Shown piece by piece: positions 3,328 through 11,174 of a stretch of DNA of 64,000 nt. The notes under the pieces are model-generated. The model worked only from the letters and a program-made list of their open reading frames with translations. It did not search any database and had not been told where the DNA came from. This DNA comes from Planctomycetota bacterium (lineage in GTDB: Bacteria > Planctomycetota > Planctomycetia > Pirellulales > Pirellulaceae): the NCBI GenBank assembly GCA_026692905.1, contig JAPLNL010000046.1, forward strand, positions 1 to 64,000, written 5' to 3'. Position 1 is the stretch's first letter. Each line of letters starts with the position of its first letter. The translations under genes were made by a program, and so were the position numbers.

Positions 3328-4545
3328 CTATTTCACCGCAACTTTGCTGGCCGAATCTGAATCTTCAAAGTTGAAGGAGAGTTCGAGGTTGTCGCCAGCG
3401 ATCAAACGAATCGTCTTTTCTTTGGTAACACCTTCATGGGTAACTTGGATCTTGTAGTCGTCCCAAGAATGGCCTTGTTGAAGCTGCTTGGTTCGGAATA
3501 CTCGCGAAGTACCTTCACTTTTGGTTCCGTTTTGAGCCAAAACCACGTTCGCTTTTTCCGGAACGTTGAGTGTCAAAATGGTCTCGATCGGAGCGTCCGA
3601 CTTGAGCGATTCGAAATTCAGTTCTTCGCCGTTGCCGCTTTCGACCACGACGGTTTTGCTTTGAACGACTTCAGTACCGTCAGCGTTGTTCATCACCGCT
3701 TTGACTTCGAATCGGTAAGCATCGTTCGCTTTAAGGTCACGACTGACGAAGTGACGTTTGGTTCCGGTTGTGGTCGTCGCATTGCCATTCACAAAAACTT
3801 TTGCAGATTCGGGCAAATTGACGGTCAAATGGATTTCGTTTGGCAGGATATTGCTGGAGGAAGCCAGCTTATTAGCGGTTTGCGAGTTCGAGATAGAACC
3901 CGAGTTGCCAAGTCCGTCCGCTGGCGCTGCGTAGGTCTCGTACGACGGCGAGTAGGTTTCGTAACTTCCGTATTGCATGGTCGAGCTAGTGCTACCGGCG
4001 CCGAACGAACCAGTGCTGCTACCGCCGTAGGATGGAGCATAACCTCCTGTGGAATGGGTGTAATGAGAACCGCCCGAAGAACCACCCCCCGAAGAACCAC
4101 CGCCCGAAGAACCACCGCCCGAAGAACCAGAACTTCGAGTTGCATATCCGCCATGCGATCCACCCGAGCTACCATAGGAGGTCGTGTAGGCACCCCCCGA
4201 TGAGCCACCGGACGATCCGTAGGAAGCTCGATACGCTGCTTTTGCATGAATATGATCATGGATTCGGGCGCCTAACCGGCGTAGAGGGCCGACATGCCCA
4301 CCCGAAGAACCACCGCTGGATGCTCCGCCTGACGAGCCGTAGCCGCCACTGGAACCATAGCCACCACTGGAACCATAGCCGCCGCTGGAGCCATTGCCAC
4401 CGCTGGAGCCATAACCCGAAGCATAGGCGCCACCGCTGGAGCCATATCCGCTGCTACCGTAACCCGCTTCAACCGGGTTGGAAACTACGAATGCCAACGC
4501 AACAAGCGTTGTAGCCGAAAGCCAATTCTTCAGGGTATTTCTCAT
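3328..4545 (-). CDS. Secreted Ser/Gly-rich protein with two TIGR03000 domains
   Basis: 405 residues with a signal peptide ending near GYG. Residues about 28-190 are dominated by repeats of GYGSSGG and GSSGG, interrupted by a short basic segment (LRRLGARIHDHIHAKA). After a Tyr/Ser linker come two copies of the planctomycete TIGR03000 domain, about residues 245-320 (beginning HLTVNLPESAKVFVNG) and 325-398 (beginning LTLNVPEKANVVL). TIGR03000 has no assigned biochemical role; it is found almost only in planctomycetes, usually once or twice behind a low-complexity segment. A surface or periplasmic structural role is inferred. The gene is monocistronic: it has its own terminator at 3278-3304. Confidence 0.88.
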   Translation of the reverse strand: MRNTLKNWLSATTLVALAFVVSNPVEAGYGSSGYGSSGGAYASGYGSSGGNGSSGGYGSSGGYGSSGGYGSSGGASSGGSSGGHVGPLRRLGARIHDHIHAKAAYRASYGSSGGSSGGAYTTSYGSSGGSHGGYATRSSGSSGGGSSGGGSSGGGSSGGSHYTHSTGGYAPSYGGSSTGSFGAGSTSSTMQYGSYETYSPSYETYAAPADGLGNSGSISNSQTANKLASSSNILPNEIHLTVNLPESAKVFVNGNATTTTGTKRHFVSRDLKANDAYRFEVKAVMNNADGTEVVQSKTVVVESGNGEELNFESLKSDAPIETILTLNVPEKANVVLAQNGTKSEGTSRVFRTKQLQQGHSWDDYKIQVTHEGVTKEKTIRLIAGDNLELSFNFEDSDSASKVAVK

Positions 4546-7000: not shown

Positions 7001-7180
7001 GTCCTGATCTTTCGGTTAAATCGTCACAATCGCTATGGAACCGTGGCATTGGAGGTGTCCCCCGGCTGCTTTCTTGAGTTTCTTGAGTCAAATGGGTTTC
7101 ATTTTCGAGATAGTTAGCGAATAATCGAACCCGCGTAATCAATTTGCGGATTTTCCCTAGTTTGCTTGCAACCACAGCTT

Positions 7181-7186
7181 ACGGAG
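7181..7186 (+). promoter_or_regulatory. Ribosome binding site for the HtrA-like protease
   Basis: ACGGAG six bases before the GTG at 7193 supports that codon over the in-frame TTG at 7166. Confidence 0.6.
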
Positions 7187-7192
7187 TCTGAC

Positions 7193-8407
7193 GTGCCCAG
7201 TAAATGCTGCAATATCGACCGCCTTTTTCTTCGGCAACGCAATTTCGTGCTAAGAGCGTCGACATGGCATGCTTTCCTTCTCGTTTTGTTGATTGCTAGC
7301 GGGGTGGTCGGCAATTGGAATTCGTCCGCCATTGCTCAAGAGCCGTCTACGGTTGTGCCGCCAACGAAATTACCCGCGACGAACACGCGACAAGACAGAA
7401 CGGCATTTCGTCCGTCATTGCCTGAGCCCAAGTTCACCAAGACCCCAAAAACCAACGGAATCACTTCGGTCGAACTGGAACCAGGACTCAGTCGAATTCT
7501 GCGTGGCGATGAACCTCGCAACCAAGCAGAACTGATCGCGCTCGAAAAGCAACAGACCAAAGTTGCGGAGAAGGTCAATTTGGTCACAGTGAATCTTCAG
7601 CACGACAATACACAAGGAAGTGGCGTTATCATTACTGGCGAAGGATACGTCCTCACCGCGGCCCACGTCGCAGGTCGCCCTGGCAAAAAGATCAATATCA
7701 TTTTGCATGATGGCACTCGTGTTGAGGGTGTCAGCATGGGTGTAAATCGAGATATGGACGCTGGCTTGGTCCGAATCACGAAGCCACGCGACACCAAAGC
7801 TGATCCATGGCCACATGCAACTCTTGGAGCTTCCTCGGATTTACAAACGGGACAATGGGTCATTGCAACTGGCCACCCAGGCGGTTGGATGGCAGACCGT
7901 CCAGCGGTCGTTCGAATCGGTCGACTGCTGCGTATCCTTCGCTCGACCTTGGTAACCGACTGTTCGTTGATTGGAGGCGATAGTGGTGGCCCCCTCTTCG
8001 ATCTTGAGGGAAGGCTTATTGGAATCCATAGCCGAATCGGCATTGACGTGGACGACAACATGCATGTGCCAGTCGATGTTTTCGACGAAAGTTGGGCGCG
8101 CCTCGTGAAGAACGATGAGTGGGGCAGTTTGCCAGGTTTCAAACCAGCCATCGGAGTGCGAGGAACTTCGGATGCAGCGAGTGAAACCATGTGCAAAATC
8201 TCTTTTGTCGAACCGATTGGGCCTGCAGCCAAAGCAGGAATACGCGTGGGCGATGTCATCACCAAATTCGATAACCAGCCTATTGGTGTTTTCGATGATC
8301 TCAAGACAGCGGTCGACTCGCTCACCCCGGGTGAACGGGTCATTGTGGAACTTCAGCGGGACGGCAAGACCATGTCCCTGTCGTTGATCGTGGGTGTAAA
8401 AGAATAA
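7193..8407 (+). CDS. HtrA/DegP-like serine protease with C-terminal PDZ domain
   Basis: About 404 residues from a GTG start preceded by ACGGAG. A hydrophobic segment near residues 25-48 is a signal peptide or anchor. The trypsin-like domain has an intact triad: His in YVLTAAHVAG (about residue 158), Asp in NRDMDAGLVRI (about 189) and Ser in GGDSGGPLF (about 264). A PDZ domain follows (about 325-400, with AKAGIRVGDVITKFDN). The layout matches periplasmic HtrA proteases that degrade or hold misfolded envelope proteins. The next gene, 79 bp downstream on the same strand, is a related but degenerate protease, so the pair probably works together. Confidence 0.93.
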   Translation: MPSKCCNIDRLFLRQRNFVLRASTWHAFLLVLLIASGVVGNWNSSAIAQEPSTVVPPTKLPATNTRQDRTAFRPSLPEPKFTKTPKTNGITSVELEPGLSRILRGDEPRNQAELIALEKQQTKVAEKVNLVTVNLQHDNTQGSGVIITGEGYVLTAAHVAGRPGKKINIILHDGTRVEGVSMGVNRDMDAGLVRITKPRDTKADPWPHATLGASSDLQTGQWVIATGHPGGWMADRPAVVRIGRLLRILRSTLVTDCSLIGGDSGGPLFDLEGRLIGIHSRIGIDVDDNMHVPVDVFDESWARLVKNDEWGSLPGFKPAIGVRGTSDAASETMCKISFVEPIGPAAKAGIRVGDVITKFDNQPIGVFDDLKTAVDSLTPGERVIVELQRDGKTMSLSLIVGVKE

Positions 8408-8486: not shown

Positions 8487-9812
8487 ATGAAGAATAGGCT
8501 TACTTGGATTGTTCGCGGAACTGTCGCCGCGATGATTGTCGCCTATGCGACTTTGGGCGACCCACTTCTTGACGCCCTGGTTGCGGTTCAAGTCTATGAA
8601 CAATCAGTTGACTCAGAAGCCAAACTGGGCGATGAACCGTCTTCGGACGAGCAAACAGAGGTCCAAAACACAGGTGCTGTTTGGAAGTCCCGGTTGGTGC
8701 AACAGGGTGGACGTTTTGGAAAAGAGCTTCAAAACGATGGCGGCCGTTCGCATCAACGTAGCCATCACAAAACGTTGCTCGCCTTTCGCGACTCGGTCGG
8801 CGACAAATGGAAATCAACGGTTCAAATTCTAGACCGAAACCGACAAGTTGCCTTAGGCGCGATCGTATCCGGCGATGGCTGGATCGTCTCCAAATCGAGC
8901 GAAATTCCAGATCGCAAGATCGAGGTCCGACTCTTCGACAATTCAAAAGCCGAGGGGACTGTCAAATCCCGAAGAGCCGATCTCGACATGGCTCTTATTA
9001 AAATAGAGCGAAGCAACTTGACCAGCATCCAATGGGACACCACCACTGTTGCACGTGTTGGTAGCTGGTTAGCCACTACCGATATCCGCAGCCTACCTGT
9101 CACCATTGGTGTCGTCAGTGTCGTGAATCGCAACATTCGGCGGGAAAGAGCAGTCCTAGGTGTCGAACTCGGAATCCCCAGGGGCGAAAAAGGTGCGCTC
9201 GTCGAGAAAGTAACAATGGGCAGTGGTGCGGATCGTGCAGGTCTTCAAGCGGGCGACGTGATTACAACCATCGACGGTGACCAATTGAATTCTCAACCGG
9301 ATGTGATGGCGAGACTCAAGGGCTTGATGGCTGGCCAACGTGTCGATGTTGGTATTCTGCGAGACGGAAAGAAATCGCTCGTAACCGCTCAAATGATGGA
9401 CTTGAACTATGCCTTGTTAGTCGATCCAACCGAGATGGAAGTCAACGGCGAAATCAGCTCGCGATCGACCGGTTTTCAAAACGTTTTGCAGCACGATTCG
9501 GTCATTGCTCCTCATCAATGCGGAGGGCCTATTGTTGATGTCTATGGAAACGCGGTCGGACTCAATATTGCTCGGGCCGGACGAGTTTGTTCCTATGCGA
9601 TTCCAGCGAATATCGCGAGTGCTGCCATCACCGAAATGATCGCATCGGCCGGGGGTACAAAATCGCCGTTCGAAGATAATGTTGCTCAATCGCCTACGAA
9701 GTCTGCTTCGACGATGACCGCTGTCGAATTGCCAACATCCATACCCAATGGCATTCAAGTCGAAGCTTTGAAGCCCGAAGTAACCGTCCCTAGTACGTTA
9801 AACCGGCCGTAG
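8487..9812 (+). CDS. HtrA-like pseudoprotease with PDZ inserted in the protease fold
   Basis: About 441 residues from the ATG at 8487; a TTG at 8457 would add ten. The N-terminus has one hydrophobic segment. The protease barrel is recognisable but the catalytic His position is Ser (GWIVSKSSE, about residue 138). The Asp is kept (ADLDMALIKI, about 167), and the nucleophile motif reads HQCGGPIVD, with Cys (about 345) in place of Ser. Unusually, the PDZ domain (about 220-305, GADRAGLQAGDVITTIDGD) sits between GVVSVVNR and the CGGP motif rather than after the barrel. The C-terminus AIPANIA matches the closing strand of HtrA proteases. It is probably inactive as a serine protease and may be a regulatory or substrate-binding partner of the preceding gene product; activity through Cys cannot be excluded. 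Confidence 0.85.
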   Translation: MKNRLTWIVRGTVAAMIVAYATLGDPLLDALVAVQVYEQSVDSEAKLGDEPSSDEQTEVQNTGAVWKSRLVQQGGRFGKELQNDGGRSHQRSHHKTLLAFRDSVGDKWKSTVQILDRNRQVALGAIVSGDGWIVSKSSEIPDRKIEVRLFDNSKAEGTVKSRRADLDMALIKIERSNLTSIQWDTTTVARVGSWLATTDIRSLPVTIGVVSVVNRNIRRERAVLGVELGIPRGEKGALVEKVTMGSGADRAGLQAGDVITTIDGDQLNSQPDVMARLKGLMAGQRVDVGILRDGKKSLVTAQMMDLNYALLVDPTEMEVNGEISSRSTGFQNVLQHDSVIAPHQCGGPIVDVYGNAVGLNIARAGRVCSYAIPANIASAAITEMIASAGGTKSPFEDNVAQSPTKSASTMTAVELPTSIPNGIQVEALKPEVTVPSTLNRP

Positions 9813-9861: not shown

Positions 9862-11174
9862 ATGCGGATCGGTATTTGCTATCTCCTGACTATCTCGTTG
9901 CTGCTGCTAGGCAGTACAACGACCCTTGCGCAGGAAAAAAAAAGCACTCATCTAACCCGATAACGGAGTCTAGCGATCCAGTTCGTCTACTGAAAACCGG
10001 ATCGTTTTGGTCGCAGTGGCGTGGTGCTTTTGGAGATGGACATGTTTCTGGTCTTCCTCAAAAATGGTCGCAGCCAAAACGATTATGGCGACATGAATTG
10101 CCTGCTGAAGGGATCGGAGGGGTTGCGGCTACCGATGAATTAGTGGTCGTTTCCTCTCGCGAAGCCAACGACAAAGCGGATCTTTTTGAGGTGCTTGATG
10201 TCGAAACGGGCCTCTCTTTGTTCAAGTTGTCGTACGCCTCCGAGATGGAACTGGACTATGGTAACTCACCTCGCGTGACGCCGGTTATTTACGATGGTTG
10301 CGTCTATTGCGTGGGAGCTCAGGGGCAACTGAATTGCTTGAACATGGAAACCGGCGATGTGCTATGGAAGCTGCATCTCGTTGACGACCTCGGGGGTAAG
10401 ATGCCGCAATGGGGATACTCAGTCTCACCGGTGTTTGTAGAGGATCAATTGATTGTGCAGCCAGGTGGACTGGAAGCTAGTTGGGTTTCATTGAACCCTA
10501 AAAACGGAAAGGTTCTTTGGCGAACCAAGGGGCGACCTGCCGCATACGCATCGCCGATCGTAATCGAATATCGAGGCCAAAAGCAATTGGTTTGCTACGA
10601 CGCCATCTCGCTCGGTGGTTGGTCAACCTCGGACGGAAAGCGGATTTGGGAAATGAAGCCGGAGGTCTCAAAAGACTTCAACGTACCCACTCCTGTTTTT
10701 GTCGAAAACAAAATCGTTTTGGTGACCGAGAACAATGGGGCTCGCGTCTTTTCGATGGTGGCTGACCAAGCGGACGAACCAATCTCGTTGAAACTCGAAG
10801 CGAGTTCCGACCTCCTCAGCGGTGATGCCCATTCCCCCGTTCGTGTTGGCAATTGGATTGTCGGAGTCGATCGGGATTTAGTCGTTCTCGACCCGCTGGA
10901 TCAACTGAAAGAGGTTGCCCGATTTTCAGATGTGGCTTTGCAAAAGCACTGTTCCTTGATTGTGGACGAAGACCGAGTTTGGGTTTGCACCGGCAATGGA
11001 ACGCAAATCCTTCTTCGGATCGACTCAAAAGGAATTTCGGAACTTGGTCGGTTCCAACCCCTGGAAAAATCAGGCGAGATTTTTTCCCATCCCGCGTTTT
11101 GCAACGGTGTGCTCTACTTGCGAGGCCCAACATGGCTAGATGCATATTCCATTGGCGGCAATAATCACGATTGA
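9862..11174 (+). CDS. PQQ-like beta-propeller protein, frameshifted after signal peptide
   Basis: The ATG at 9862, behind a good GGGAG, encodes a classic signal peptide (MRIGICYLLTISLLLLGSTT then TLAQE). This frame stops at 9961-9963 (TAA). The mature domain is read from the -1 frame: after an A9 run at 9944-9952 the propeller frame continues KKHSSNPITESSD and stays open to 11174. One extra A would join them. The body has repeated PQQ-type blades such as GVYCVGAQGQLNCLNMETG-like strands and WSQWRGAFGDGHVSG, typical of BamB-like or quinoprotein-type planctomycete proteins exported to the periplasm. Possible causes are a sequencing error in the homopolymer, phase variation, or programmed -1 slippage. 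Function beyond scaffold or sugar/alcohol dehydrogenase-like fold is unknown. Confidence 0.8.

Follow-up and report, generated by a model that had tools for sequence, protein, structure and literature searches.

Nma111 is a tandem HtrA protein that holds an active and a degenerate half in one chain. AtDeg7 has the order PD-PDZ-PDZ-PDia-PDZ-PDZ, with PDZ domains placed after the barrels, and its dead domain is involved in trimerisation (PMC3473262). The MamE/MamO pair consists of two HtrA-type proteins from one gene cluster, one active and one degenerate, and MamO activates MamE without catalysis (PMC4794232). In DegP and DegQ, PDZ occupancy is relayed to the activation loops via PDZ1-L3-LD signalling (PMC3575494), and in the S41 C-terminal processing proteases Prc, CtpA and CtpB a regulatory PDZ sits within the protease domain (PMC6686036).

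The locus investigated here lies in a 64,000-nucleotide stretch of DNA from a Planctomycetota bacterium, hereafter the window, and encodes an HtrA-like pseudoprotease with a nested PDZ domain (8487-9812, + strand, 441 aa) behind an intact HtrA. The pair resembles MamE/MamO in combining an active and a degenerate HtrA-type protein in one gene cluster; in contrast, MamO has a C-terminal transporter domain as its activating part and binds metal, and a PDZ inside the protease fold, as found in the window protein, is not mentioned in the available part of that account (PMC4794232). The window protein scored 32.7 bits with the NCBIfam MamO model NF040961, whose cut-off is 800. Like Deg7, fused relatives of the window pair combine an active HtrA half with a degenerate one in a single chain. 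Unlike in the Deg7/Nma111 layout, where PDZs follow each barrel, the second barrel of these fused relatives is broken by a PDZ, and the module is mostly a separate gene, as it is in the window. With DegP, DegQ and DegS, the window protein has the barrel fold (Z about 25-26) and the PDZ family in common, and it differs from them in its domain order, the loss of His and Ser and the location of the PDZ in loop L3. Prc, CtpA and CtpB are active enzymes of an unrelated protease fold; the embedded PDZ is a common trait, and the hits of NCBIfam S41 models to the window protein cover its PDZ region.

Domain architecture of the pseudoprotease

The gene at 8487-9812 was delimited as an open reading frame, is recognised by Pfam and is conserved in relatives; it recurs at 94% identity in the closest relative record, a metagenome assembly labelled "Planctomycetaceae bacterium" (L037). 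All parts lie on the + strand. An N-terminal hydrophobic segment (8487-8552), read by eye from the sequence, is a putative signal peptide or membrane anchor. The N-terminal part of a trypsin-like fold spans residues 101-216 (8787-9134), up to GVVSVVNR, as placed by Pfam, profile alignment, and an AlphaFold2 (AF2) model with structure comparison. An insert of residues 218-329 follows (9138-9473); it comprises the PDZ domain, whose residues 222-300 are encoded at 9150-9386, plus a linker, and is supported by Pfam, the profile alignment and the AF2 model. The fold resumes with residues 330-390 (9474-9656), which contain the motif QHD...QCGGPxxDxxGxxxGxNIAR (profile alignment, AF2 model and structure comparison). 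Pfam assigned residues 124-196 to Trypsin_2 (E 9e-7) and 222-300 to PDZ_2 (E 5e-13), with the second protease stretch, including QCGGP and Cys345, C-terminal to the PDZ. The NCBIfam DegP and HhoA models matched the protein in three pieces, far under their cut-offs; for the Do family serine endopeptidase model TIGR02037 the score was 97.8 bits, in three separate stretches, with a cut-off of 416.2.

A profile of 33 relatives was aligned to solved HtrA sequences, including one DegP-like chain. Profile positions 32-133 corresponded to residues 95-200 of that chain and positions 243-300 to residues 202-264, and the PDZ (positions 134-223) corresponded to residues 269-370, i.e. to the PDZ that comes after the barrel in DegP. 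As aligned, the insertion falls between near-adjacent residues of the canonical barrel, at a point between GIVSALGR and FIQTD that we take to be loop L3 by DegP numbering. The order of barrel followed by C-terminal PDZ(s), typical of active HtrA/DegP (S1C) proteins, is thus replaced by a PDZ inside the barrel. Canonical HtrA barrels were split around the PDZ in 33/33 alignments, their catalytic His falling on Ser138 and their catalytic Ser on Cys345. The nested order is neither chance nor a sequencing accident, because it stays collinear down to about 30% identity.

The AF2 input alignment (A8) comprised L037 and 30 canonical HtrA barrels encoded on public viral contigs, the barrel-only rows having longer N-termini. 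In the resulting model, two stretches that lie apart in the sequence, about 100-220 and about 330-390, form one barrel (pLDDT about 75-95), and the PDZ region, folded without alignment support, stayed below pLDDT 50; identification of this region as a PDZ rests on Pfam. Compared with the DegS-type protease 5jd8, model residues 90-388 gave a Z score of 26.6 (rmsd 2.2, 179 aligned residues), and DegS, DegP, DegQ, HtrA1 and MucD gave Z near 25-26.6 over about 180 residues. In this model, for which canonical HtrA barrels were part of the input, the protein has the two-barrel HtrA-type trypsin fold, placing it in the S1C superfamily by descent and fold. As A8 presupposes that both halves are homologous to canonical barrels, the model is a consistency test and no independent proof; in it, the two halves are predicted to fold into a single HtrA barrel interrupted by the PDZ.

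A sequence-only reading of the window had proposed a PDZ between the two halves of the barrel and had named structure prediction as a check. The profile, Pfam and AF2 agree with the interrupted barrel, the predicted structure having one HtrA barrel (Z 26.6) whose sequence is split by the insert. The boundary drawn in that reading needs correction, since the supposed first half ending at GVVSVVNR already holds strands of the second barrel; rather than being domain-swapped, the PDZ is nested in loop L3, within the second half of the fold.

Distribution of the module

The gene was present in all 26 same-genus relatives except G018, whose contig stops about 380 bases past the partner gene; G003 has only a piece, cut by the contig end. 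Beyond the genus, the module was found in many families across the order at 30-40% identity, collinear over the full length, and the nested order is kept across the order and, further out, in the class and phylum. A clear module was detected in 41 of 246 planctomycete genomes sampled, and none was found in the viral contigs or in the plasmids scanned. In one lineage (f43), two PDZ domains are inserted in the dead module, which shares a chain with an active HtrA: the chains of about 960 aa at L148:1397-4285 and L149:1-2880 consist of an active HtrA (TAGHV...GDSGG), two PDZs and a dead module with two PDZs. At L059, L060, L061, L062 and L065, long divergent proteins end in or contain the module, and some of them have several degenerate protease units.

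Association with one HtrA subtype

The intact HtrA directly ahead of the pseudoprotease (7166-8407, + strand; ORF, Pfam and alignment), already recognised in the sequence-only reading, retains His167, Asp198 and Ser273 and has an ordinary C-terminal PDZ at residues 328-407; its true start codon may be further in. Partners of this subtype are marked by conserved GHPGG and TDCxLxGGDSGGP motifs. A GDSGG HtrA lies immediately upstream on the same strand at 54 of 82 module loci and is fused to the module at 16. The remaining 12 had neither arrangement in the stretch examined. Contig ends account for two of them and long fusions, degenerate or cut, for another five; the last five, which come from two f21 family genera, have a truly solo module. 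The genomes with solo modules encode the partner elsewhere (E 1e-98 to 1e-112), in each case with His-Asp-Ser intact, so that adjacency to the partner is not required. Two genomes of the same family without the module had ordinary HtrAs only and no partner subtype, and this contrast is the most telling sign of the pairing.

Among 60 relatives, 45 genomes have both module and partner, 13 have neither, and two are exceptions: G018, with the partner only at a contig end, and one genome with only the module, in a degenerate fusion. In the 246-genome planctomycete sample, 41 genomes have the module and the partner subtype and 205 have neither, the score range for the subtype having been set after the scores were seen. 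G105 was counted via its fused partner at a weaker E of 9e-46, inside the range of ordinary HtrAs, and the E of 1.4e-51 for G265, narrowly beyond the cut, belongs to an ordinary HtrA. Fisher tests gave p about 1e-47 for this sample and, in a further test of module and partner co-occurrence, p about 4e-11, both ignoring shared ancestry; the counts represent non-independent lineages, in which fused genes co-occur by construction.

In 9 of the 16 fusions, the stretch that links the active barrel to the module has no recognisable PDZ, as confirmed by Pfam for L052, L054, L056 and L057. The nested PDZ may therefore be the sole PDZ serving the active site in these chains, which suggests that it can serve an active protease. 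Parsimony on the fused state gave eight changes; as well-supported branches force only one, repeated independent fusion is not claimed.

The former active site

Conservation was assessed in 84 homologous rows, some of them near-copies. The catalytic His position (Ser138, 8898-8900) was occupied by Ser in 78 rows, Thr in five and Asp in one, and never by His, and the catalytic Asp (Asp167, 8985-8987) was invariant. At the nucleophile position (Cys345, 9519-9521), Cys was found in 74 rows, Val in three, Met and Ile in two each and Leu in one, with two gaps and no Ser in the 82 occupied rows; Gln is found there in L148 of lineage f43. Instead of the His-Asp-Ser triad of active HtrA/DegP (S1C), the window protein thus has Ser138, Asp167 and Cys345. 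The substitution of Ser for His, the retained Asp and the QCGGP motif described in the earlier reading all hold in the ORF, the 84 rows and the 33/33 canonical barrels, and the absence of the base His from 84/84 rows fits its proposal of a loss-of-function protease. Its suggested orthologue search likewise returned the inserted order throughout and no Ser nucleophile. Position 343 varies across the module rows, whereas in trypsin-like enzymes this residue, two ahead of the nucleophile, is the oxyanion-hole Gly. Lys136 and Ser138 (8892-8900), His336 (9492-9494) and Cys345 (9519-9521) make up a near-invariant set around the former active site, with Lys136 kept in 83 of 84 rows and His336 in 75.

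Possible functions of the module

A redesigned hydrolase or thiol enzyme, which the sequence-only reading had offered as an option, would pair Cys345 with a new base such as Lys136 or His336. The strong retention of both residues, together with that of Asp167 (84/84) and Cys345 (74/82), is what such an enzyme would call for, and yet eight rows have Val, Met, Ile or Leu in place of Cys345, and a further lineage has Gln, in members keeping the rest; with a variable position 343 and no base His in any row, we regard this reading as very unlikely. Most replacements being hydrophobic, a buried residue is a better fit for this position than a thiol active in catalysis. The loss of two catalytic positions could also point to a functionless, decaying, pseudogene-like duplicate, a proposal made highly improbable by open frames and invariant motifs throughout the phylum and by the co-inheritance and association with the partner.

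More credible, while still improbable in our view, is an independent scaffold, chaperone or binding protein, in which the PDZ and the collapsed pocket would hold peptides or ligands, the protein sharing a pathway with the active HtrA but making no contact with it. The separation of module and partner in five genomes is compatible with such a role, the highly conserved QHD and NIARAxR motifs could form a putative binding site, and MamO has a separate metal-binding role (PMC4794232). Against this, the 16 single-chain fusions and the near-perfect co-occurrence with one HtrA subtype favour a direct partnership.

The reading that we consider likely is that the window protein is a catalytically dead HtrA paralogue devoted to the neighbouring intact HtrA as its non-catalytic partner; near-constant co-occurrence, often with fusion, makes such a dedicated partnership of dead and live sister probable. 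The "dedicated regulator" of the earlier reading is in keeping with the same gene-content evidence of co-occurrence, adjacency and fusion with one subtype. By analogy with MamO/MamE, such a non-catalytic subunit would regulate or scaffold the active HtrA, a role included in the same judgement. Some findings count against the dedicated-partner reading: the five solo loci do without adjacency, Lys136, Ser138, Asp167, His336 and Cys345 are conserved beyond the needs of a bare scaffold, and the precedents (MamO/MamE, AtDeg7, DegP/DegQ) differ in domain order.

In a possible mechanism for the dedicated partner, the pseudoprotease barrel and the active HtrA barrel would assemble into a mixed periplasmic complex, in which the PDZ nested in L3 may bind exposed C-termini of substrates or signal peptides. 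Binding could be relayed via an L3-type interface to the active subunit, and the relay would switch on or target the partner's proteolysis. By comparison with the known systems, a dead barrel with a PDZ in L3 could do the sensing or recruiting for an active barrel beside it. Whether this amounts to a two-part HtrA machine, with the sensing PDZ in the allosteric L3 of the dead subunit and with sensing and cutting assigned to different subunits or chain halves, is a more tentative proposal, to which we give slightly less than even chances.

Across planctomycetes, a dead barrel with a PDZ inside L3 is kept together with one subtype of active HtrA. The open-access papers searched contained no account of such an arrangement, and no model describing it was found among the Pfam and NCBIfam families. 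If real, the mixed complex would be a natural separation of sensing from cutting, with a directly testable PDZ-to-L3 relay, and would add a phylum-wide example to the short list of bacterial pseudoproteases known to control a live relative.

Neighbouring genes

Downstream of the pseudoprotease, a gene for a BamB-like PQQ beta-propeller protein is found at 9876-11174, with its signal peptide MRIGICYLLTISLLLLGSTTTLAQEKK in another frame. Within 9862-9945 the frame is broken at a run of nine A, and the L037 equivalent is a single open frame; a one-base indel, real or from assembly, is likely. A conserved operon with the BamB-like gene was considered and rejected, as, of the loci compared, only that of the closest relative (L008/L037) has this gene beside the module, with a weak case in L010. 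At other loci, ScpB directly follows the module. Elsewhere in the window, a protein rich in GYGSSGG/SSGG repeats and with a signal-like start is encoded at 3328-4545 on the - strand.
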